Assembly (NCBI GenBank): GCA_949741915.1
Contig: CATJOM010000035.1
Span: 1 to 64,000 of the forward strand
Length of the DNA stretch: 64,000 nucleotides
Direction: 5' to 3'
Origin: an uncultured Candidatus Melainabacteria bacterium
GTDB lineage: Bacteria; Cyanobacteriota; Vampirovibrionia; Gastranaerophilales; Gastranaerophilaceae
The notes below the pieces were generated by a model. The model was not told the DNA's origin. It did not search any database and saw nothing but the letters and a program-made list of their open reading frames with translations. Positions 16,259-31,500 of this stretch are shown piece after piece; positions within the stretch are counted from its first letter, which is position 1, and each line of letters opens with the position of its first letter. Position numbers and translations under genes: made by a program.

Positions 16259-16312
16259 TGAAAAGTAATAAAAGTTTATTTTTTAAAAGATAGCTGTATT
16301 TTGGGGAGTATA

Positions 16313-17413
16313 ATGGATTATTCAAGACTTTTTGATTTAGCAAGGGAATGCTATGCTAATCTTTCTTACAATAACAAGGAGGGAAAGGCCTTAATACCTT
16401 TGAGGTACTTTTTTGAATTAACATACAGGTGTAATTTAAACTGTCCGTATTGTTATGTAGGGTCTGATAGAAAAAAAAATGAACTTTCGACAGAGGAGTG
16501 GTTTAGTGTTATAAAACAGATTCCAAGATATTCTTTTGTAACACTTGTTGGGGGAGAGCCGCTTGTAAGACATGATTTTAAGGATATCTTATTTGAAACA
16601 TCAAAGAGGGTTTTTGGCAAGCTAAACGTTGTAACAAACGGAATCTTGATTAATGACGAAATCATTGAAGCATTCATAAAATCAAGGATGATACTTTTAT
16701 CTGTCTCTATTGATGGATGGGGAAAAAACCATGACCTGAATAGAAACAAAGATGGAATTTTTGATAAGATTACAAAAAACCTTGAAACGCTTAACTATAG
16801 AAGGATGAAAACTAAAAACAGACCTATGGTTGATATTAAGACTATTGTTCTTAATAACAATATTGATGATTTATTAAAGCTTTATGAATATACAACAGAT
16901 ATGGGTTTTGAATTTTTAAGCATTTCATTCTTAAGAAATAATGACCTGAAGCAAAATTCAATATTAAAAGATGAATTTGAACCAGTATTTTATGAGCCTG
17001 AATATCCTATACAGCCTTACTTTGATATGGAACATTTTGAGGATGTTTACAGAAGAATATGCGAAATATCTAAAAAATCAAAGACCAAAATAAGATTTTC
17101 GCCAAAGCTTGAGGGTGGCGGCTTTAGAGAAGAGATGGCAAAGATTAAATCTTTCTTCACACCAGAAGATAGAAAAGATTTATATCGCCATCCTAAGGAT
17201 ATTTATTACCCATGCAAATATCCATTCTCCAACATGATGATAAATCCCCAGGGTGATGTATATCCTTGTTTATCATTTAAAATCGGAAATGTTAGAGATA
17301 AAAAATTAAAAGATGTATTTAACGAGACAAAATTTAAGTGTTTCAGAAAAAACCTTAAATATTCTCAAAGCTTCAGCGCATGCCAGATGTGCTGTGAGCT
17401 CAAGGTAAAATAA
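16313..17413 (+). CDS. Radical SAM protein with SPASM-like C-terminus
   Basis: 366 aa. The 4Fe-4S/SAM motif CxxxCxxC is at Cys40, Cys44, Cys47 ('YRCNLNCPYCYVG'); 'VGGEPLVRHDF' is the GGEP strand. The C-terminal Cys-rich part ('YPCKYPFSNMMINPQGDVYPC', then 'CFRK', 'CQMCCEL') fits a SPASM/twitch domain that holds auxiliary clusters. Such enzymes modify peptides or proteins. GGGGAG at 16303-16308 fixes the ATG at 16313. An M16 peptidase gene follows 24 nt downstream, a pairing known from peptide-derived cofactor pathways such as PQQ. Confidence 0.85.
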   Translation: MDYSRLFDLARECYANLSYNNKEGKALIPLRYFFELTYRCNLNCPYCYVGSDRKKNELSTEEWFSVIKQIPRYSFVTLVGGEPLVRHDFKDILFETSKRVFGKLNVVTNGILINDEIIEAFIKSRMILLSVSIDGWGKNHDLNRNKDGIFDKITKNLETLNYRRMKTKNRPMVDIKTIVLNNNIDDLLKLYEYTTDMGFEFLSISFLRNNDLKQNSILKDEFEPVFYEPEYPIQPYFDMEHFEDVYRRICEISKKSKTKIRFSPKLEGGGFREEMAKIKSFFTPEDRKDLYRHPKDIYYPCKYPFSNMMINPQGDVYPCLSFKIGNVRDKKLKDVFNETKFKCFRKNLKYSQSFSACQMCCELKVK

Positions 17414-17437
17414 CTATACATAACAGAGGATTTAAAA

Positions 17438-20221
17438 TTGAAAAGAATATTTTTAGCAGTTTTGGCATTCAGTATCATATCTATAAATATTGGTTTTTGC
17501 AAAACCGCTGAGACAAACCAGGAGATAATTGCTCAAAAAAATCAGCAACTACAGCAGGCTGCAGGGGTAAGTAAAAATTATACTGTTCAAAAGCTTTCAT
17601 CAGGGCAGACAGTTATTGTCATGCCTGTTAACATCAACCCAATTGTTACTATTGATACTTGGATAAAGACAGGCTCCATTAATGAGGATGATAAAAATTC
17701 AGGCGTAGCACACTTTTTAGAGCATTTATTTTTTAGGGGGACAGAAAAAACGCCTCCTGGCGAATTTGACAGAATGCTTGAATCAAAAGGAGGGGTGACA
17801 AATGCTGCCACAAGCAAAGATTACACGCATTATTATATAACGATACCATCAAAAGAATTTGACAAAGCACTTGAATTGCACGCGGATATGCTCTCAAATC
17901 CTTTGATTCCGAGAAAAGAACTTGAAAAAGAAAGGCTTGTAGTGCTGGAAGAAATCTCAAAAGGCCAGGATAGCCCCACAAGTGTTATGTATAACAATCT
18001 TTTTAAGCTTATTTACACACAAAACGAGCCAAATCACCCGTATTTCAGACCGGTTATAGGTTCAAACAAGGTGATAGAAACTATCTCACGCGAAGAAATT
18101 CTTGATTTTTATAACAAATGGTACTCACCCCAGAATATGACAACAGTAATTGTAGGGGATGTAGAGCCTGAATATGCAATAAAAAAAGTGGCAGAGCTAT
18201 TTAATGGAAGCAATAAAACTTATCAGGAAGGTATTTATCCAAAAACACCTGATATCATAAAGCCCTTAAGAGTAGTTGAAAACAAGGACGTTAATACAGG
18301 ATATCTTGCAATTGCATACAAGGCCCCAAAGTTCAAGGATGATAAGGACAGCTATGCGCTTGATGTATTGGCAACAATTTTAGGAGACTCAAGAAGTTCT
18401 ATCCTTAATCAAAAATTAAAGGAAGAAAAACAGCTTGTTTATTCAATTTCTGCAAGCAATTCTTCTTTTATGGATGACGGACTATTTATTATTCAGACAT
18501 CATTTAAGCCTGGAAATTTGTCTGCCGTTGAGGATGAAGTATTTAAACAGATTGATCTTGTAAAAAAGGGTGGAATCACAGACAGTCAAGTGGCAAAAGC
18601 CATCAATATGATAAAGACTTCAACTTATTATTCAAGGGAATCAATTTCCAATATTTCAAATGAACTCGGATATTTAACTCTTTTCTGGGGAAACACCTGG
18701 TATTATGATAATTACCTGAATAATATTGAAAAGGTTAAAAAAGCTGATGTCATAAAGATTGCAAAAAAGTATCTTGATAAAAACAAAACAGCAATTTCTA
18801 TTATACTTCCAAAAGAAGATGACAAGAACACAAAAGAAATAAGCAATATTCAGGAAGAAATAAAGCCTGCACAGAAACTTGAAAGTTCAAAAAATATTAA
18901 TAAATATAAATTATCTAATGGAGCAGTTTTAATAATTAAGAAAAACCCTGTAAATTCAATAATTGCGATTGATATTCACAGCATTGGCGGAAACTTTATT
19001 GAAAAAAACCCTGGCATTGCAACAATTGCAGCAACGAGCGCAACCAAGGGCACAAAAAAAATGGACAGCGAGGAACTAGCCAAAACATTGGATGAGAAGG
19101 GAATAAAACTTTCATTAAGCTCTGGCAATGATACTTTTAACATTAACCTTTTAACAACCACAAACGAACTCGACAGCGCCCTTTCAATTTTAAATGATGT
19201 AATAAATGAGCCGACATTTACAAATTATGAAATCGAAAAGGTTAAAAAATTAAAGCTTGCGGGCATAAAACAAATGAAGGACAGCGCCCTTAACCTTGCT
19301 GTTGATGAATTTAAGGCAACAGCGTTTAGGGGAAGTATTTACGGAAATAATTCCAATGTTTTGGAAAAGAATATTCCCGATGTTACAAGGGATGATGTAA
19401 TACAGTATTATAATACTGTATTAGAGCCTGAAAATCTTGTTATAACGGTTGCGGGGAATGTAGATGATACAAAAATTATCAACCATATGACAAGAATTTT
19501 TAAGGATAAGAATCAAAAACAGGTAGTGCTGAAGGATATAAATATTTCACAATTTGCACCTGAAAATAATATAGAAAAAACATTGTATAAGGATGATACA
19601 AAAACAGCATGGGTATTAGTCGGATATAAAACTGGCAGTATTTTTAATGAAAAAGATGTTGCAACAATGAAAGTAATTAATGCTATACTTGGCGAGGGGA
19701 TGAGCTCGAGGCTGTTTAAAAATCTGAGGGATGACAAAGGCTTAGCCTATTCTGTAGGGTCAACTACACTTCAAAATGCACTAGATGGCGCATTTATTGC
19801 ATACATCGGGACAAACAACGACAGTGTTGAAACAGCAAAATGCGGCATGATTAGTGAAATAAACAGGCTAAAAACCGAATATGTTTCAAACGTTGAACTA
19901 CAGGAAGCAAAAGATAAAATTTTAGGAAATATTTTAATTTCACTTGAAACAAATATGGACGATGCCTCTCTTTTGAGCTGGTATGGCGCATTAGGGTATG
20001 ATATCAACCATCTTGAAGATTACAAGAAAGCAATTTTAGATGTTACGCAATCTGACGTTTTAGCTGCCGCAAATAAATATTTTTCAAAAGCATATATAAA
20101 TGTGACAGTTAGAAGCGGGCAAAATACCGCCCTCCCTGCACAAGCAGCACAAAAACCTGCGGAAAAACAGATGCAGGAAGCAGCCAAAAAGCCTGCGGCA
20201 GAACTTCAAAAAACAAAATAG
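17438..20221 (+). CDS. Exported M16 family zinc peptidase, two M16 units
   Basis: 927 aa, with signal peptide 'MKRIFLAVLAFSIISINIGFC' (Cys21 could also be a lipobox). The first M16 unit (about 50-470) has the inverted zinc motif HxxEH (His92, Glu95, His96 in 'HFLEHLFF') and the downstream Glu region 'LEEISKGQDSPTS'. The second unit (about 500-900) keeps the fold but lacks HxxEH, as in clam-shaped M16 proteases such as pitrilysin and PqqF. The C-terminus is Ala/Lys/Gln-rich. It starts at TTG, 7 nt after AGAGGA. It is probably co-transcribed with the radical SAM gene and may process its product. Confidence 0.88.
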   Translation: MKRIFLAVLAFSIISINIGFCKTAETNQEIIAQKNQQLQQAAGVSKNYTVQKLSSGQTVIVMPVNINPIVTIDTWIKTGSINEDDKNSGVAHFLEHLFFRGTEKTPPGEFDRMLESKGGVTNAATSKDYTHYYITIPSKEFDKALELHADMLSNPLIPRKELEKERLVVLEEISKGQDSPTSVMYNNLFKLIYTQNEPNHPYFRPVIGSNKVIETISREEILDFYNKWYSPQNMTTVIVGDVEPEYAIKKVAELFNGSNKTYQEGIYPKTPDIIKPLRVVENKDVNTGYLAIAYKAPKFKDDKDSYALDVLATILGDSRSSILNQKLKEEKQLVYSISASNSSFMDDGLFIIQTSFKPGNLSAVEDEVFKQIDLVKKGGITDSQVAKAINMIKTSTYYSRESISNISNELGYLTLFWGNTWYYDNYLNNIEKVKKADVIKIAKKYLDKNKTAISIILPKEDDKNTKEISNIQEEIKPAQKLESSKNINKYKLSNGAVLIIKKNPVNSIIAIDIHSIGGNFIEKNPGIATIAATSATKGTKKMDSEELAKTLDEKGIKLSLSSGNDTFNINLLTTTNELDSALSILNDVINEPTFTNYEIEKVKKLKLAGIKQMKDSALNLAVDEFKATAFRGSIYGNNSNVLEKNIPDVTRDDVIQYYNTVLEPENLVITVAGNVDDTKIINHMTRIFKDKNQKQVVLKDINISQFAPENNIEKTLYKDDTKTAWVLVGYKTGSIFNEKDVATMKVINAILGEGMSSRLFKNLRDDKGLAYSVGSTTLQNALDGAFIAYIGTNNDSVETAKCGMISEINRLKTEYVSNVELQEAKDKILGNILISLETNMDDASLLSWYGALGYDINHLEDYKKAILDVTQSDVLAAANKYFSKAYINVTVRSGQNTALPAQAAQKPAEKQMQEAAKKPAAELQKTK

Positions 20222-24916: not shown

Positions 24917-27898
24917 ATGGAAGAAAAAAAACTATCGCCCGCAAGGGTAATTTTAAAAAAGCAACATTTGCAGATAAAGAAGCAAACTGGGAAACTTAAA
25001 CAATTAATAAAACTCGTATCAGATAACGTTCTAAAACCTTTCCAAAAGCATTCATTGTACGTAAACTTCAAGAGTTTTAGCAGAAAAAGACAACTTCAAA
25101 ATATTGAGGGGATTGAAAATTTTTCTGCATATTCACAGATTAAATCAGCGAATAATCAATTATATAAACACTTTACAAGAAGAAATTCAGCATTCTCTCT
25201 TGTTGAGATGTTAATGGCACTACTTGTAGCTTCATTATTAATGGCAGCACTGGCACCTGTTATGACAAAAAGGTTTAATGAAAATGTTACAATAGATGCT
25301 AATGTGTCATCATCTGGCGAGGGTATCAAAAAAACCTACGAAATAGAATTTGGCTCGGATGAATGTAGCGAAATAAAGACTGATAGTGACGGAAGCGAGT
25401 ATTGCGAAGGCGAATACTCTATCCCAAGCAATTTTAGCGGAGCAATGAAAGTAACCGTTGTAGGCGCTGGCGGAGGCGGGGGCATAGCACCCACAGCCGG
25501 ATATGTTGAATACACAACAGCAGGAAGTACAAATAGTTTTACAGTGCCTGCAATGGTAAAACAAATTGAGGCAACACTTATCGGCGGAGGAGCTGGCGGT
25601 GGAGCTGCTTCATGGGTTGAAACCTATAAAGAGTGGAAAGGAGGACAGATAACTACCTGGACAGCCCCAAATGAAGTAATGGGTAAAATTGTAAAAGTTA
25701 CAGCATGCGGTGGCGGTGGAGGAGGGGGCTCTGCCTTTTATAATTCCAGCAATCCTGATCATGACTGGGTAAATGCCGGTGGTGGAGGCTCAGGTGGGTA
25801 TCTTGAAAACGTTATCAAAAAGATGCCAAATTCGGGCTCTTTATCTATTGTAATTGGTGGTGGTGGAGGCGCAGGCGGGCACAATAACTCATGTGGCAAC
25901 AACGGCCATGAACCAAATGGTGGTGGTGGCGGAAGTGAATGCGGCGCAACATCAGGCGGGACAGGCGGCAGTGCAGGCGGAGGAAATGGCGGCAGGGTTG
26001 CACCAGATATTACCACTGGAGCAAGTAACACCTTTACCGTAGCTCAAGGCGGTTCTGGTGGCGTAAATGGTACTGCAACTACAACCAGCGCCTTGGGGAA
26101 GGGCGGTTCCGGTGGTGCAGGTGGAAATGGCGGTAATGCATGGGATTGGGATACTCTTTACAACAATGAGAATATGGGCGGCGGTTCTGGTGGAACGCTC
26201 GGCGGAGGTGGAGGCGGAGGCGGTACAGGCGGCAGCAAGGGCGGAGGAGGTGGCGGTGCAACGCAGATAAGCGGTTTTACCAATGGAAATGTACTTGCGC
26301 CGGGTGGTGGCGGAGGTCTTGGTATTGATATGTTATACGCAATGGGTGGTTCTGGTGGTGGAGGCGGAGGCGGTACAGGTGGCGGATTTGGTGGCCATGA
26401 ACCTCATTTAGAGATTGGAAGGGGTGGCGGTGGTGGGCAGCCGGGTGGCGGACATTCTACCTGGTGCTGGCCTGGGGTAGTAAAAACTCCATGGTCTGAC
26501 GGACGTGAGTCTAACTTTTGCATAGGGGGTTATGGCATGCGTTGCGCAGGCAATAATTATGGCGATATGACCGATGGCAAAGATGGCGCAGCGAGAATTT
26601 ATTACGCATCTTCTACAGCCACTGGCGGCAGCGGGGGTGGGGGTGGCGCAATAGTGCCCTACCAAAGCATAAATGTTACACCAAAAGAAAATTTAAGTAT
26701 ACAGATAGCAAATATAGCAATCGGCCAAGGTGCTGGCGGTTATAATTCAAGTGGAATAATAGTATATGGGCAAGGAGCTGAAAAAGGCAATGTTTCAACT
26801 ATAAAAAGAGGAACAGATGTTCTGCTTAACACAGATGTATATCATGGAGCGTTTGGTGGTTGGAATGAAGGCTCTTGCACAATAAATCATACCTGTCGCT
26901 CAGGTTCTGTATTTGATGGCATAAGTACTGCATACTCTAACAATTGGAATGGAGCATACAATGTTAACGGTCTAGCTGCAGGCAACAGGCCCTATGGTAC
27001 AACTACACCAGGTACTGCAAATTCTACCGGCGGACGCGGTGGATATACCAATGTTTTCGGGGAGCAATTCTGTACACCAGGCGAAGGCGGAACCGCATCT
27101 CATCCTGATGGATACAACGGAACAGGCTATGGCTGTGGAGGTGGAGGCGGTTCCCATGGGGGAAGGGGTGGCTCAGGATCTGGCGGATATGCAAGGATAT
27201 CTTGGAATAATAACTGGAATGCAAGTAACAATAATTATGATATAAAGCAAAATCTGACAGGCGGGGGCGGAGCCAGTGGTAATATTATGAGCTATTCAAT
27301 ATATGTAAGAGGCAATGAAAAAATAAAGATTAGAATAGGTAAAGGCGGAAGCGGTGCATATGTATTGAATAATAATGTAATTAGTGCAAAAAATGGTGGT
27401 ATGACTTCATTTGCATCTGGAGCATCTCGAGAGATAAGGGCAGGCGGCGGAAAAGCAGGAGGTAACCCTGTTGTCACATTTGACAGCTCTAATAATGTAG
27501 TTATAACCGCAGGAGATGGCGGCAGCATATCTGATGTCTGCTGGTATAAAAAGAATTTCTTCAATACTGACACAAAAGGTGAGTACTGTACAAAAGGAAT
27601 TGCTGGCGAAAGAGGTACAGCAAGCAAAGGGGGTAAAGGGGCAGATTTTATTGGATATCAAGTAACAGAGGCCAACAATAGTGAAATAAACATTACAGGC
27701 ACAGGGGGAAATAGCGGCGTCTATGATACAGGCAGCAATTCTAGCGGAAAAAATGCAGACGGATACGGCGCAGGAGGCGGAGGTGCCGCATTAAGAAATG
27801 TCAGCAAGGTTAACTCAAACGAAGCAATATCAAATCCTAATTCTGGCGGAAATGGTTCAAACGGAAGAATAATGCTGGAGTGGTATGAGAACAGGTGA
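24917..27898 (+). CDS. Giant glycine-rich prepilin-like protein
   Basis: 993 aa. A prepilin-type cleavage/methylation motif is clear at residues 92-118: Ala92 | Phe93-Ser-Leu-Val-Glu97, then a hydrophobic helix ('MLMALLVASLLMAALAPVMTK'). The pre-peptide is therefore 92 residues, very long and basic. The rest (about 140-990) is dominated by Gly-rich repeats of 'GGGGGG', 'GGSGG' and 'GAGG', broken by Asn/Ser/Thr-rich beta-type stretches, and ends in 'RIMLEWYENR'. AAGGA at 24904-24908 supports the ATG at 24917. A surface or extracellular role via a type IV pilus or type II secretion-like machine is likely. It lies directly upstream of the SVRC cassette array, but contains no SVRC motif itself. 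Confidence 0.8.
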   Translation: MEEKKLSPARVILKKQHLQIKKQTGKLKQLIKLVSDNVLKPFQKHSLYVNFKSFSRKRQLQNIEGIENFSAYSQIKSANNQLYKHFTRRNSAFSLVEMLMALLVASLLMAALAPVMTKRFNENVTIDANVSSSGEGIKKTYEIEFGSDECSEIKTDSDGSEYCEGEYSIPSNFSGAMKVTVVGAGGGGGIAPTAGYVEYTTAGSTNSFTVPAMVKQIEATLIGGGAGGGAASWVETYKEWKGGQITTWTAPNEVMGKIVKVTACGGGGGGGSAFYNSSNPDHDWVNAGGGGSGGYLENVIKKMPNSGSLSIVIGGGGGAGGHNNSCGNNGHEPNGGGGGSECGATSGGTGGSAGGGNGGRVAPDITTGASNTFTVAQGGSGGVNGTATTTSALGKGGSGGAGGNGGNAWDWDTLYNNENMGGGSGGTLGGGGGGGGTGGSKGGGGGGATQISGFTNGNVLAPGGGGGLGIDMLYAMGGSGGGGGGGTGGGFGGHEPHLEIGRGGGGGQPGGGHSTWCWPGVVKTPWSDGRESNFCIGGYGMRCAGNNYGDMTDGKDGAARIYYASSTATGGSGGGGGAIVPYQSINVTPKENLSIQIANIAIGQGAGGYNSSGIIVYGQGAEKGNVSTIKRGTDVLLNTDVYHGAFGGWNEGSCTINHTCRSGSVFDGISTAYSNNWNGAYNVNGLAAGNRPYGTTTPGTANSTGGRGGYTNVFGEQFCTPGEGGTASHPDGYNGTGYGCGGGGGSHGGRGGSGSGGYARISWNNNWNASNNNYDIKQNLTGGGGASGNIMSYSIYVRGNEKIKIRIGKGGSGAYVLNNNVISAKNGGMTSFASGASREIRAGGGKAGGNPVVTFDSSNNVVITAGDGGSISDVCWYKKNFFNTDTKGEYCTKGIAGERGTASKGGKGADFIGYQVTEANNSEINITGTGGNSGVYDTGSNSSGKNADGYGAGGGGAALRNVSKVNSNEAISNPNSGGNGSNGRIMLEWYENR

Positions 27899-27993
27899 AA
27901 CGTCTTTCTGGAAGTTCAAAGACCTGTTCAGTCTCATTAACCCCGTCTGTCCACAATTTGACTCTCACTAAGATTTTAGATGAACAACTTTTC

Positions 27994-28034
27994 GGGTATT
28001 GAGTTTTTTGTAACCTTTTCAATACCCTTTTCTT
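27994..28034 (+). terminator. Terminator after prepilin-like gene
   Basis: GGGTATTGA (27994-28002) and TCAATACCC (28019-28027) form a perfect 9-bp stem, followed by TTTTCTTT. It isolates the downstream cassette array from this transcript. Confidence 0.8.
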
Positions 28035-28419
28035 TATATAGTTGCCAATCATTCTTCTATTAGATATTATTAATAGCGTAGTTATACCCCAAGAGTGTTA
28101 AAGTTTACGGATTTTAACAGACGGGAACCTTCAAATCGTCGGTAAAATCATTTTTATGATAAATTTTTGTATTAAAAATACAAATACCGTTTAATAGAGT
28201 ATATTTTATTAAACTAAATAACTTTACCATTTATATTAAACACAGTACACAAGCAGTTATTGCACATTGAAAGCTAAAGCCAGTGTTGGTTTTAGATGCT
28301 CCTTATGACTAGTATTACCGTTGCGCGTTCTAGCTATATGCAGTTCCGCTTTTTACTTATTGTGGTTTAGCTGTGCTTTTGCTGGTTTTTTAAGCTATAT
28401 TTCACACTTGCGTCCCACT

Positions 28420-28614
28420 ACTTTGCACATTGTATCCTTTACCAGCGGCTGTGCGGGCGCTGCATTAGGAAGCGCCTGGGCTAACAATTGTTATGCAAAT
28501 AATGTCTGGTCCTATACATCCTCGGGTGGCAGTAGTTATGTTGATTTTTACATGGGTGGCGGCTCGTTTAATAAAGAGGCTGTACTACATACAGGTGCTT
28601 TTTCGGTGCGCTGT
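28420..28614 (+). other. SVRC cassette unit 1 (5' box degenerate)
   Basis: Encodes 'SFTSGCAGAALGSAW', 'NNCYANNVWSY', 'YMGGGSF' and ends 'GAFSVRCV' followed by a stop. The 5' box has decayed to ACTTTGCAC, but alignment to unit 2 is gap-free over the first 12 residues. A leader-like TAAGCT is at 28391. Confidence 0.6.
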
Positions 28615-28657
28615 GTTTAGGGTTTGATTACAGCTGTGCGATCAGGGTGCGGCTTCC

Positions 28658-28834
28658 TCTGTGCGGTGCGAGAGCTTCATTGGCGGCTGTAAGGGTGCCA
28701 GTGAAAATAATTGTTATTCAGCTCATCTGTGGTCATATATTAGAGATGAATCTAATGGCTGGCTTTTTCGGATGTATAATGGAATTTTTAGCGAGTTTAG
28801 CCGTAGTCTTAGCAGAGCCATTTCGGTGCGCTGG
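28658..28834 (+). other. SVRC cassette unit 2
   Basis: Leader TACAGCTGTGCGA at 28629, 29 nt before TCTGTGCGGTGC. Encodes 'QLCDQGAAS' then 'SVRCESFIGGCKGAS', 'NNCYSAHLWSYI', 'MYNGIF' and 'AISVRW'. The final Cys is replaced by Trp. The core is 55 codons from box to box. Confidence 0.65.
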
Positions 28835-29034
28835 TTTTTACTGTATTTGCAGGTACTACTTCACTAGTGATTTCCACCCATAGTTGCGGCACTTTGTGTT
28901 TTGACTGTGCACCACGTTATTTTCCTTAACATATCCTTCAAGCTTTTACTTTTGGATAGCACTCAAGTCCCATAAGTAAGTGTCGAGTCATTCTTGCACA
29001 GCTTGCCTTGCTATGTGGCTGCCGTGGTGATGGT

Positions 29035-29215
29035 TCCGTGCTTTATGCAGAGCTCATACAAGAACTGTGCGGGCGCTTGGATTAATACCTGTTACTCGTA
29101 TCATGTATGGTCTTCAACGAAGACTTCAGATAGATGCTATCAGGGGCCATTTCTGTGGTCAGGCGTTATTCACTATGAAGGTATAGACTACACCCGAGCC
29201 ATTTCGGTGCGCCAT
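29035..29215 (+). other. SVRC cassette unit 3 (damaged)
   Basis: The 5' box is altered (TCCGTGCTTTATGC) and a one-base shift separates it from 'SYKNCAGAWINTCYSYHVWSS' and 'AISVRH'. The final Cys is lost. Confidence 0.55.
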
Positions 29216-29344
29216 CGCTTTTTATTCGTTACCTTGGGTGTTGCTTGCTTAGTGCAGTTTTATTATAGACTACGCTCCGGATTTGATGTTCAGTCATTCC
29301 CTTGGCTATTACAGCTACAGCTGTGCGACCATGATGCTATAGCT

Positions 29345-29524
29345 TCTGTGCGGTGCGATCCTAGTTATGGTGGTTGTGTGGGCTCTACAAATAGTAACTG
29401 TTACTCGGATGCCTTTTGGTCGGGCACGCTTATAAATGAAAGCAGCTATCAGGCCTTCTGGCTTAACGCAGGCCTTATTCGCACAGGCTCCCGCGGTACC
29501 AATGAAGCCTATTCGGTGCGCTGT
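29345..29524 (+). other. SVRC cassette unit 4
   Basis: Leader at 29316, 29 nt before the 5' box. Encodes 'SVRCDPSYGGCVGST', 'NCYSDAFWSGT', 'AFWLNAGLI' and 'AYSVRC'. It is intact box to box, 56 codons, and the best representative of the set. Confidence 0.7.
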
Positions 29525-29658
29525 ATGCAGTACACTTTATTTTGCTTGTTTTTTCACCCAGGATTTGTTTTAGTTTATTAGACAGGTGCAATAAAGGCAT
29601 AGTTAAGTATGTATGCCCTCTAGTGACACCAAGTTTGATTGTAGGCACACACTACATT

Positions 29659-29990
29659 CACCAGTGATTCATCGATTTCTTTAGCGCTCTATGCGATATT
29701 CTTGGCGTATTTGTTTGCCTGTCGCGGGTATACTACTGCCCTAAAGATATATTCCTATAAGCATAGGGCAAGAAGCTGTACAATAGCTCAAGGCGCGCCA
29801 GATATAGCGTGTTTCTTATATAGGCGGTGCCTGAGTTTCAGATAATATTTTTTGTACCTATGTTATATGGTCACCACCTTCTGGACAGGAGATATTTGTT
29901 TACACTATTCCCAAACCTACCAGTGACATCCTTAGCCAGCCTATTTCTTCGATATTGACTACTGAAGTTCTAGCGTTACTTATTTTGACA
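29659..29990 (+). other. Decayed cassette remnants
   Basis: GCTCTATGCGATATTC (from 29686) resembles the 5' box of unit 5. GGCGGTGCCTGAGTTT (about 29823) resembles the 3' box, and 'TYVIWS' coding sequence at about 29855-29872 resembles the central CYxxxVWS block. One or two eroded units would explain the double-length gap between units 4 and 5. Confidence 0.4.
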
Positions 29991-30170
29991 CAATGATATT
30001 TACCCGCTCTTTTATACGCTTGTTTTCGAAGCATTTCTAGTACTCATTGCCTGCGGCACTAGATTTACTGCTATAGATACCTTGTGCATCGCTTATATTT
30101 TGCAAGTTATAATGTAGACCGCATCTGTTCCATTTGTGCTATACAGCTGTGCAGTCTTAGCTCTGCAGAC

Positions 30171-30350
30171 TCTGTGCGATGCTCTACTATCTGGGGCTCG
30201 TGTTACAGAGGCTCAGATTCAGACTGCGTTCCACATGCCCTTTGGACTAGTACCCCAAGCACCTCAGGACATTCTAACTCCTGGTTTTCCGGGGGCAGCT
30301 TCGGATTAGATTCTTCGTTTACTAACTTTCATGCATTTTCGGTGCGCTGT
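30171..30350 (+). other. SVRC cassette unit 5
   Basis: Leader TACAGCTGTGC at 30142 (29 nt). Encodes 'SVRCSTIWGSCYRGS', 'DCVPHALWTST', 'WFSGGSF' and 'HAFSVRCV'. It is 56 codons box to box, the same length as unit 4. Confidence 0.7.
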
Positions 30351-30481
30351 GTTTTTGGGGCCAAATGTGGTTGAAGCAATAGGGTATAATATTTTGTACT
30401 ACCTGCTGGACGCTGACTTTTGTGACAGTATGTTATCTACTGACGACTCCTTTGTTTTATCTTGCCATTACAGTTACAAGC

Positions 30482-30682
30482 TCCGTGCGGTGCGATGCAT
30501 TGAGCGGCAAGTGCGGCGGAGCCATGTATGATTTCTGTTATCCTTTCGATGTATGGTCAGGTACAGTTCGTGATACAAATTACTACACAGCAACTGCCTT
30601 TATAGGTGGCACATTTAATGCCAGCCTCTCATGCGACAGCACTGGAAGGTGTCAAAGACTTCACGCCTTTTCGGTGCGCTGT
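30482..30682 (+). other. SVRC cassette unit 6
   Basis: 5' box TCCGTGCGGTGC. The leader TACAG is present but only 13 nt upstream. Encodes 'SVRCDALSGKCGGAM', 'DFCYPFDVWSGT', 'FIGGTF' and 'HAFSVRCL', with an extra Cys pair in the second half; 63 codons between boxes. Confidence 0.65.
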
Positions 30683-30809
30683 TTGCCATTTATCCTTTTG
30701 TTATAAGAGAGAGCACAGCGGCTGAGTTATGTTACATTCTACGCTAAAGCGTGCTGTGTTTATGGCTTTGGCTTATATAATACAGCTGTGCGACGAAAAG
30801 CGGACAGGT

Positions 30810-30986
30810 TCTATACAATGTGAGTACTCAGGCTCATGTACAGGCTCAGAAGGGGGCTGGTGCAACACAAGCTATGTATGGTCAGGCACTTACTTTGGTG
30901 AACCGAAGTATGGTATTTTTTGGCTATATAATGGTAACTTTACTTCTCGTCAGTTTGGTGTCACCTGGGCCTATTCGGTGCGCTGT
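30810..30986 (+). other. SVRC cassette unit 7
   Basis: Leader TACAGCTGTGCGA at 30781 (29 nt). The 5' box is changed to TCTATACAATGT (Ser-Ile-Gln-Cys). Encodes 'GSCTGSEGGWCNTSYVWSGT', 'FWLYNGNF' and 'AYSVRCV'. Confidence 0.65.
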
Positions 30987-31096
30987 GTTGCTGGAGCTGC
31001 ATGATTAATGCATCTAATAACTACACTAAAAGACCTACCGCACGCTGTTTTTAACAGAATAGATATACATAAATTGCATTTTGTACCCAAAGAGGC

Positions 31097-31288
31097 TCTG
31101 TGCGATGCTGCGTAGGGCCTGATTACTGTGCAGGCTCATCCCCAGCAAGAGATGCGGGTTATTGTTGGCCAAAAGCCATATGGACAGCAAATTTTTGCTA
31201 TGGACAGAGCTACAGCGACTATTCATTTAACAATGGTAGCTTTTACGCTCAGATTTCAGACCACACCTATGCCTTTACGGTGCGCTGT
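31097..31288 (+). other. SVRC cassette unit 8, last of the array
   Basis: 5' box TCTGTGCGATGC. Encodes 'SVRCCVGPDYCAGSS', 'GYCWPKAIWTANF', 'FNNGSF' and 'AFTVRCV' (the end box begins ACG, not TCG). The frame runs on 28 codons past the box before a stop. Confidence 0.65.
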
Positions 31289-31423
31289 GTTCTTGGCTTT
31301 TATTGGCAATTGCAAGCAGACAAAACAAATTCATTAAAAAACGATTATTCTTGGCAGCTTCGCACCAATTAAAATAAAAATCCAAGATGAATTATCACTA
31401 CAAATTACAAAAAAGTTCATTGT

Positions 31424-31478
31424 CAACAAAAATGCGCCTTTTGAAATTATGGTGTTTTGCATAATTAATAGGCGCATT
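31424..31478 (-). terminator. Terminator of aroF
   Basis: AATGCGCC (31431-31438) pairs with GGCGCATT (31471-31478), with an inner AATTATG/CATAATT stem. Read on the minus strand it is followed by TTTTTG. It separates aroF from the cassette array. Confidence 0.75.
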
Positions 31479-31500
31479 CAATATTTATCTTAAATGTCTT

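Follow-up and report, generated by a model that had tools for sequence, protein, structure and literature searches.

The 64,000 nucleotides analysed here, referred to as the window, carry a row of coding units that share one protein domain and lack start codons, and the locus thus raises the question of what such units are and where their sequence might be expressed. The window lies on contig C35 of a 2.45 Mb genome in 126 contigs (G000), the closest named relatives of which are Candidatus Gastranaerophilales MAGs.

The cassette bank in the window and its counterparts across the genome

Eight cassettes occupy positions 28426–31291 of the window on the plus strand, in mixed frames, all eight encoding a common four-cysteine domain with invariant C, C, W, G, A and VR residues and all matching its HMM; in these respects an initial annotation, which had described at least eight units of one orientation and one domain without starts, was confirmed. 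Its further statement that every unit is bounded by Ser-Val-Arg-Cys (SVRC) boxes applies to most cassettes, but does not extend to cassette 1 (28426–28617), which is without a proper left box, or to cassettes 2 (28652–28837) and 3 (29033–29218), the right boxes of which end in SVRW and SVRH. Cassettes 4 (29339–29527), 5 (30165–30353) and 6 (30476–30685, with an additional Cys pair) follow. The left box of cassette 7 (30804–30989) reads SIQC and the right box of cassette 8 (31091–31291) reads TVRCV. Between cassettes 4 and 5, approximately 630 bp (29530–30160) hold no recognisable cassette and may contain a decayed unit. Elsewhere in the window (16301–20221), translation alone reveals a radical-SAM-like protein (CxxxCxxC) followed directly by a large zinc-peptidase-like protein (HxxEH), a couple that may be a peptide maturation pair.

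Across the genome, approximately 124 cassettes were found in 11 contig-level banks (C20, n = 4; C22, n = 9; C35, the window bank, n = 8; C45, n = 3; C47, n = 9; C57, n = 21; C66, n = 12; C80, n = 13; C88, n = 13; C95, n = 25; C102, n = 7), with uniform unit orientation inside each bank. The banks on C66 and C102, which overlap by 98 bp, are probably adjacent. The array is far beyond chance, with 103 matches in a domain search of the genome and 61 matches to the box pattern compared to 0 for the reversed control. No cassettes were detected in 26 of 29 other sampled relatives from the family and order.

Alignment of approximately 120 copies bore out the description of variable centres between conserved box DNA: the right box (GCCTTTTCGGTGCGCTG) and the left box (TTACAGCTGTGCGAC and GCAGGCTCTGTGCGGTGC, separated by ~9 free bases) are near-invariant, the cores between them are strongly divergent, and DNA conservation ends sharply just outside the boxes, leaving the spacers unconserved. 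Unconserved spacers and mixed frames are what functionless, decaying tandem gene duplicates could leave behind, but such an origin is scarcely credible given that 121 of the 124 cassettes have open cores (9.9 expected under base shuffling), that boxes and leader (see below) are conserved, and that exact recent copies of cassettes occur in the expressed gene of three genomes, which already contradicts decay. The excess of open cores shows that coding content is under selection, although none of the cassettes has a start codon.

Silent cassettes and an expressed prepilin-like gene

The initial annotation had proposed that the cassettes are donors for an expressed gene elsewhere, and the search of the genome recovered such a gene, carrying the same segment, on contigs C26 and C118. 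On C26 (minus strand, 2–1303) the gene opens with a prepilin N-terminus (FSLVEMLMALLVASLL) and a glycine-rich stretch, followed by an Lcl_C-like segment (GGGRLPTQNELS) and a cassette segment between the same two boxes as in the banks, the boxes being coding sequence located within the recipient gene. The continuation on C118 (minus strand, right end) adds approximately 600 glycine-rich residues, which places the cassette domain mid-gene and not at the end, where it had been expected. C26 and C118 both stop at the cassette and have 36 bp around the right box in common, with tails that differ. An identical break point occurs in the expressed gene of G001, another species of the same genus, and the two genomes share the neighbours of this gene, with infB and truB lying upstream of it and the genes for Avd and a reverse transcriptase (RT) downstream, though in both, each species being represented by one MAG, the expression site falls at contig ends.

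The product looks secreted or pilus-like, has the N-terminal methylation motif FxLVE (FSLVEMLMALL in C26), and is presumably displayed on the cell surface. The N_methyl domain was also found in the homologous target at locus L096 (genome G029) and in a prepilin/Gly-rich gene next to the window bank (24917–27898, plus strand; PF07963 N_methyl, E 1.2e-4; PF21722, E 4e-5). Paralogue matching assigns the latter to the same large family as the expressed gene; it is without the cassette domain and is not the expression site. Similarity of the C26 gene to PF07603 (Lcl_C/DUF1566) is weak (E 0.0069), and the L096 target matches with E 1.3e-5, under the curated cutoff. An AlphaFold model was too poor to use (pLDDT 51), and a search for a solved structure of the domain found none. 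The pilin part is just 36% identical between G000 and G001. At least 20 prepilin/Gly-rich paralogues, including the window gene, were counted in G000, and their near-identical N-termini form the break points of many contigs (e.g., the starts of C39, C42, C71, C97, C107 and C116). The paralogues on C82, C68, C48 and C88b have no long tracts in common with the banks, except for a 20-bp box match of C88b.

Exact matches of 25 bp or longer to three banks account for 147 of the 154 bp in the C26 variable region; C80 contributes 37 bp, C95 contributes 64 bp, and cassette 3 of the window (29154–29212) supplies 59 bp as the right half. Of the 1221 bp upstream, 0 are accounted for in this way. In a bank-versus-bank control, the longest common stretch had a median of 15 and a 95th percentile of 26. 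The 7 bases left over are similar to a C47 cassette, with a single A-to-T change. At its tail, C118 carries a different donor tract, an exact 56-bp copy of a C47 cassette. At the G001 expression site, both halves are exact to one silent cassette (55 and 37 bp), and in a third genome, G035 (CALUWF010000001.1), the expressed gene lies next to the start of a tandem array of approximately 26–30 cassettes, one unit of which it reproduces exactly, over 187 bp, in its expressed segment. Sequence sharing between silent and expressed copies was thus observed in three independent genomes, in keeping with the mosaic segments that had been anticipated in the expressed gene, and it supports donation of sequence from the silent cassettes to the C26/C118 gene as the probable direction. 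An assembly artefact was considered and rejected, as bases at the donor junctions are absent from every bank and the G035 copy lies mid-contig (401 kb).

Identity by itself carries no direction, and the cassettes of G000 are adenine-poor (0.187), resembling a mutagenised variable region, both of which would suit an archive in which past variants of the expressed gene are exported to the banks and kept there. We consider such an archive improbable. Three silent cassettes, each complete and each on a contig of its own, make up the patchwork of the expressed segment, so that flow towards the banks would need three separate partial exports, and in the relatives described below the leaders head template repeats, not their products.

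Bank leaders, the DGR machinery and mutagenic relatives

The initial annotation had reported the units to be without promoters, but the window bank is preceded by a promoter-like site and a leader (28042–28143). The inferred promoter (28042–28070, plus strand) consists of TTGCCA (28042–28047) and TATTAT (28065–28070) with a 17-bp spacer, and a structured leader RNA follows at 28082–28143 (plus strand; covariance model R1, E 3e-13). In both species, TTGCCA-N17/18-TATTAT or a close variant precedes nearly every copy of the leader by approximately 10 nt (promoter-like sites, mean score 9.5 compared to 8.3 in shuffles), and the leader heads most of the G000 and G001 banks with an assembled 5' end, nearly all of them with such a site. 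It is this combination at nearly every bank head that makes the banks look like transcribed arrays. Of the 13 pairs in the leader hairpin, 10 show compensatory changes; 98% of cells are paired, and none of 500 shuffles is comparable.

Searched against 892 kb of loci, R1 matched only at bank heads, inside the G035 array or at its end, and in the surroundings of the templates of L096 and of L097, the locus of genome G030; none of the diversity-generating retroelement (DGR) loci tested from other phyla contained the leader. Strong matches numbered eight in G000 (six at bank heads, two at contig edges) and 10 in G001. A search of 241 genomes from the order detected the leader only in G000 and three genomes of one other genus. 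Comparison with Rfam, including window positions 27900–31500, returned no significant family. The RNA element recurs where the template or array ends on its 3' side (L195, 11870–12060; L097, 5391–5610). After this second copy come a solitary right box and a hairpin resembling a terminator, and the variable regions of L097 and L102 have a right end identical to such a solitary box.

The leader precedes the G035 array and also the true templates of L096 and L097, both of which are Gastranaerophilales DGRs. At L097, the variable region of the homologous pilin gene differs from a nearby template at 21 positions, 20 of which are template adenines. In G029, all 14 mismatches between the variable region and a template approximately 190 kb away (L197, 9114–9344) fall on template adenines, while a nearer template is not the source of the variable region, a comparison that shows the remote template acting in trans. 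Leader and cassette unit are likewise shown to be homologous to working templates. These mutagenic relatives change 27–33% of template adenines, and G025 carries a classical DGR, with an RT of the same type and Lcl_C in its target. The remote G029 template contains an in-frame TAA that is lost in the mutagenised copy in the gene, so that an unmutated copy would be non-functional. The expressed genes of L097 and L102 have a right box (TCGGTCGCTG) that is one base short, with a frameshift just after the cassette, and the expressed gene of L099 is in two frames, split at the right box; the short box is also present in some array units and in the terminal element. The short box and the split gene are possibly an off state.

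In G000, Avd and RT adjoin the expressed gene on C118. The RT has the motifs GLPIGNLTSQ and YVDD (DGR-type [I/L]GxxxSQ and YxDD; RVT_1, E 1.5e-16), and the Avd matches bAvd (PF22296) with 46.9 bits (cutoff 40); PADLOC matches of the RT were set aside as generic RT similarity only. Between G000 and G001, pN/pS is 0.08 for Avd and 0.20 for RT, compared to 0.14 for infB, values that indicate purifying selection and a housekeeping-like conservation of both genes. Neither a template repeat nor a box was found between or near Avd and RT in this genome, leaving the cassettes as the only candidate templates found. None of the G000 and G001 cassettes behaves as a mutagenic template, with at most 48% of mismatches at A, and DGR mutagenesis was rejected as the origin of their diversity, the differences not being adenine-specific and NNY codons not being enforced. 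Since the adenine-mismatch pair is absent from G000 and G001 and present in the relatives, the system was filed as DGR-derived and not as an ordinary DGR.

On the cassette strand, the spacers of the G000 banks have a low adenine content (A 0.242, T 0.358; other noncoding DNA ~0.345 each). This occurs in nine of the 11 banks, most strongly in C95 (A 0.159, T 0.405), and is absent in G001 and G035. Adenine content of spacers and of cassettes is correlated across the G000 banks (r = 0.77, p = 0.006). The adenine-poor spacers could reflect adenine mutagenesis of the banks and, together with the cassette values, may mean that the G000 banks are slowly rewritten by the DGR RT.

The reading that we prefer, with a probability of roughly 0.6, is that the banks are expanded and dispersed DGR template arrays, copied by RT and Avd into one pilin-like gene. 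A single DGR template repeat would have expanded into a library of approximately 124 cassettes in approximately 10 dispersed arrays, and every array would have a promoter of its own, giving a non-coding RNA that carries the structured leader. With one cassette as template, the DGR RT and Avd, whose genes adjoin the expressed gene, would synthesise cDNA. This cDNA would then take the place, wholly or in part, of the variable segment that the two boxes of the gene enclose, and a surface or secreted protein would in this way switch cassettes faithfully and often as mosaics. We infer from sequence that the arrays are transcribed and that RT, rather than RecA, is the copier. That the system is a DGR in which adenine mutagenesis has been swapped for more than 100 transcribed templates, copied faithfully and as mosaics through RNA, we hold at even odds.

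Fidelity is the main difficulty of the DGR reading. The copies in G000, G001 and G035 span approximately 85 adenines with at most one to two changes, and the relatives have a quarter to a third of adenines changed; the RT active-site motif is identical in array genomes and mutagenic relatives, with no fidelity switch visible. Exact copying favours RecA-type segmental gene conversion, in which DGR-derived cassettes now serve as DNA donors through their boxes and RT and Avd act elsewhere, for example in occasional mutagenesis. Exactness across those adenines, conserved boxes around divergent cores, three-donor mosaics and the retention of a mutagenic-type motif by the RT would all agree with such conversion, which is a serious but rather unlikely competitor; it leaves unexplained the promoter and covarying leader RNA at nearly every bank head, as well as the conservation of RT and Avd beside a gene with no other template. 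The conserved RT, Avd, promoter and leader favour a faithful RT, and RNA-templated cassette copying is accordingly the favoured process over RecA gene conversion.

Comparison with known systems

In published surveys, DGRs have one template or a few, with 75% or more of mismatches at adenines (PMC8144416, PMC6642488), and multi-template DGRs are on record in small numbers (PMC6642488). A literature search, outside of which lay preprints and most subscription journals, found nothing on gene conversion in the Gastranaerophilales or on template-repeat arrays, and equally no arrays of more than 100 templates, leader-headed dispersed library or DGR-tied faithful cassette switching. DGR hypermutation and silent-cassette gene conversion would here be joined in one lineage with visible intermediates, from one to two mutagenic templates, to an array of approximately 30, to approximately 124 in dispersed banks. 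It becomes testable how a mutator element turns into a stored repertoire, whether cassettes can be switched faithfully by an RT, and what varies on the pilus-like proteins of these uncultured gut bacteria; with the short leader model, such arrays can be located in other genomes.

The DGRs of G030 and G029 (L097 and L096) share with this system the target gene family, the leader, the boxes and the convergent RT/Avd, but have one to two templates per genome and are visibly adenine-mutagenic. DGRs in general (BPP-1 type, and cellular DGRs with DUF1566/Lcl_C targets) have in common with it the GLPIGNLTSQ RT, bAvd, a structured template RNA, and a target that has a conserved 3' box and a variable C-terminal part, which may be Lcl_C-like here, and mutagenic pairs occur in its closest relatives. 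The BPP-1 system has been reconstituted in laboratory E. coli (PMC12875486). DGRs differ in possessing one template, compared to approximately 124 in dispersed arrays with none beside the RT, and in adenine mutagenesis as opposed to faithful mosaic copying. Neisseria pilS/pilE and Borrelia vls have the many silent partial copies, the expression site, the flanking conserved boxes, the exact segmental mosaics and the prepilin-type N-terminus in common with the present system. The banks described here, however, occupy approximately 10 places, have a promoter and a structured RNA leader, appear to be derived from DGR templates, and are accompanied by a DGR RT. The analogy to promoterless vls and pilS cassettes made in the initial annotation is not supported, as the leader also heads true DGR templates, and a DGR RT and Avd sit at the expression locus. 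DGRs and silent-cassette systems such as pilS and vls are each well known, and both would meet here in one system.
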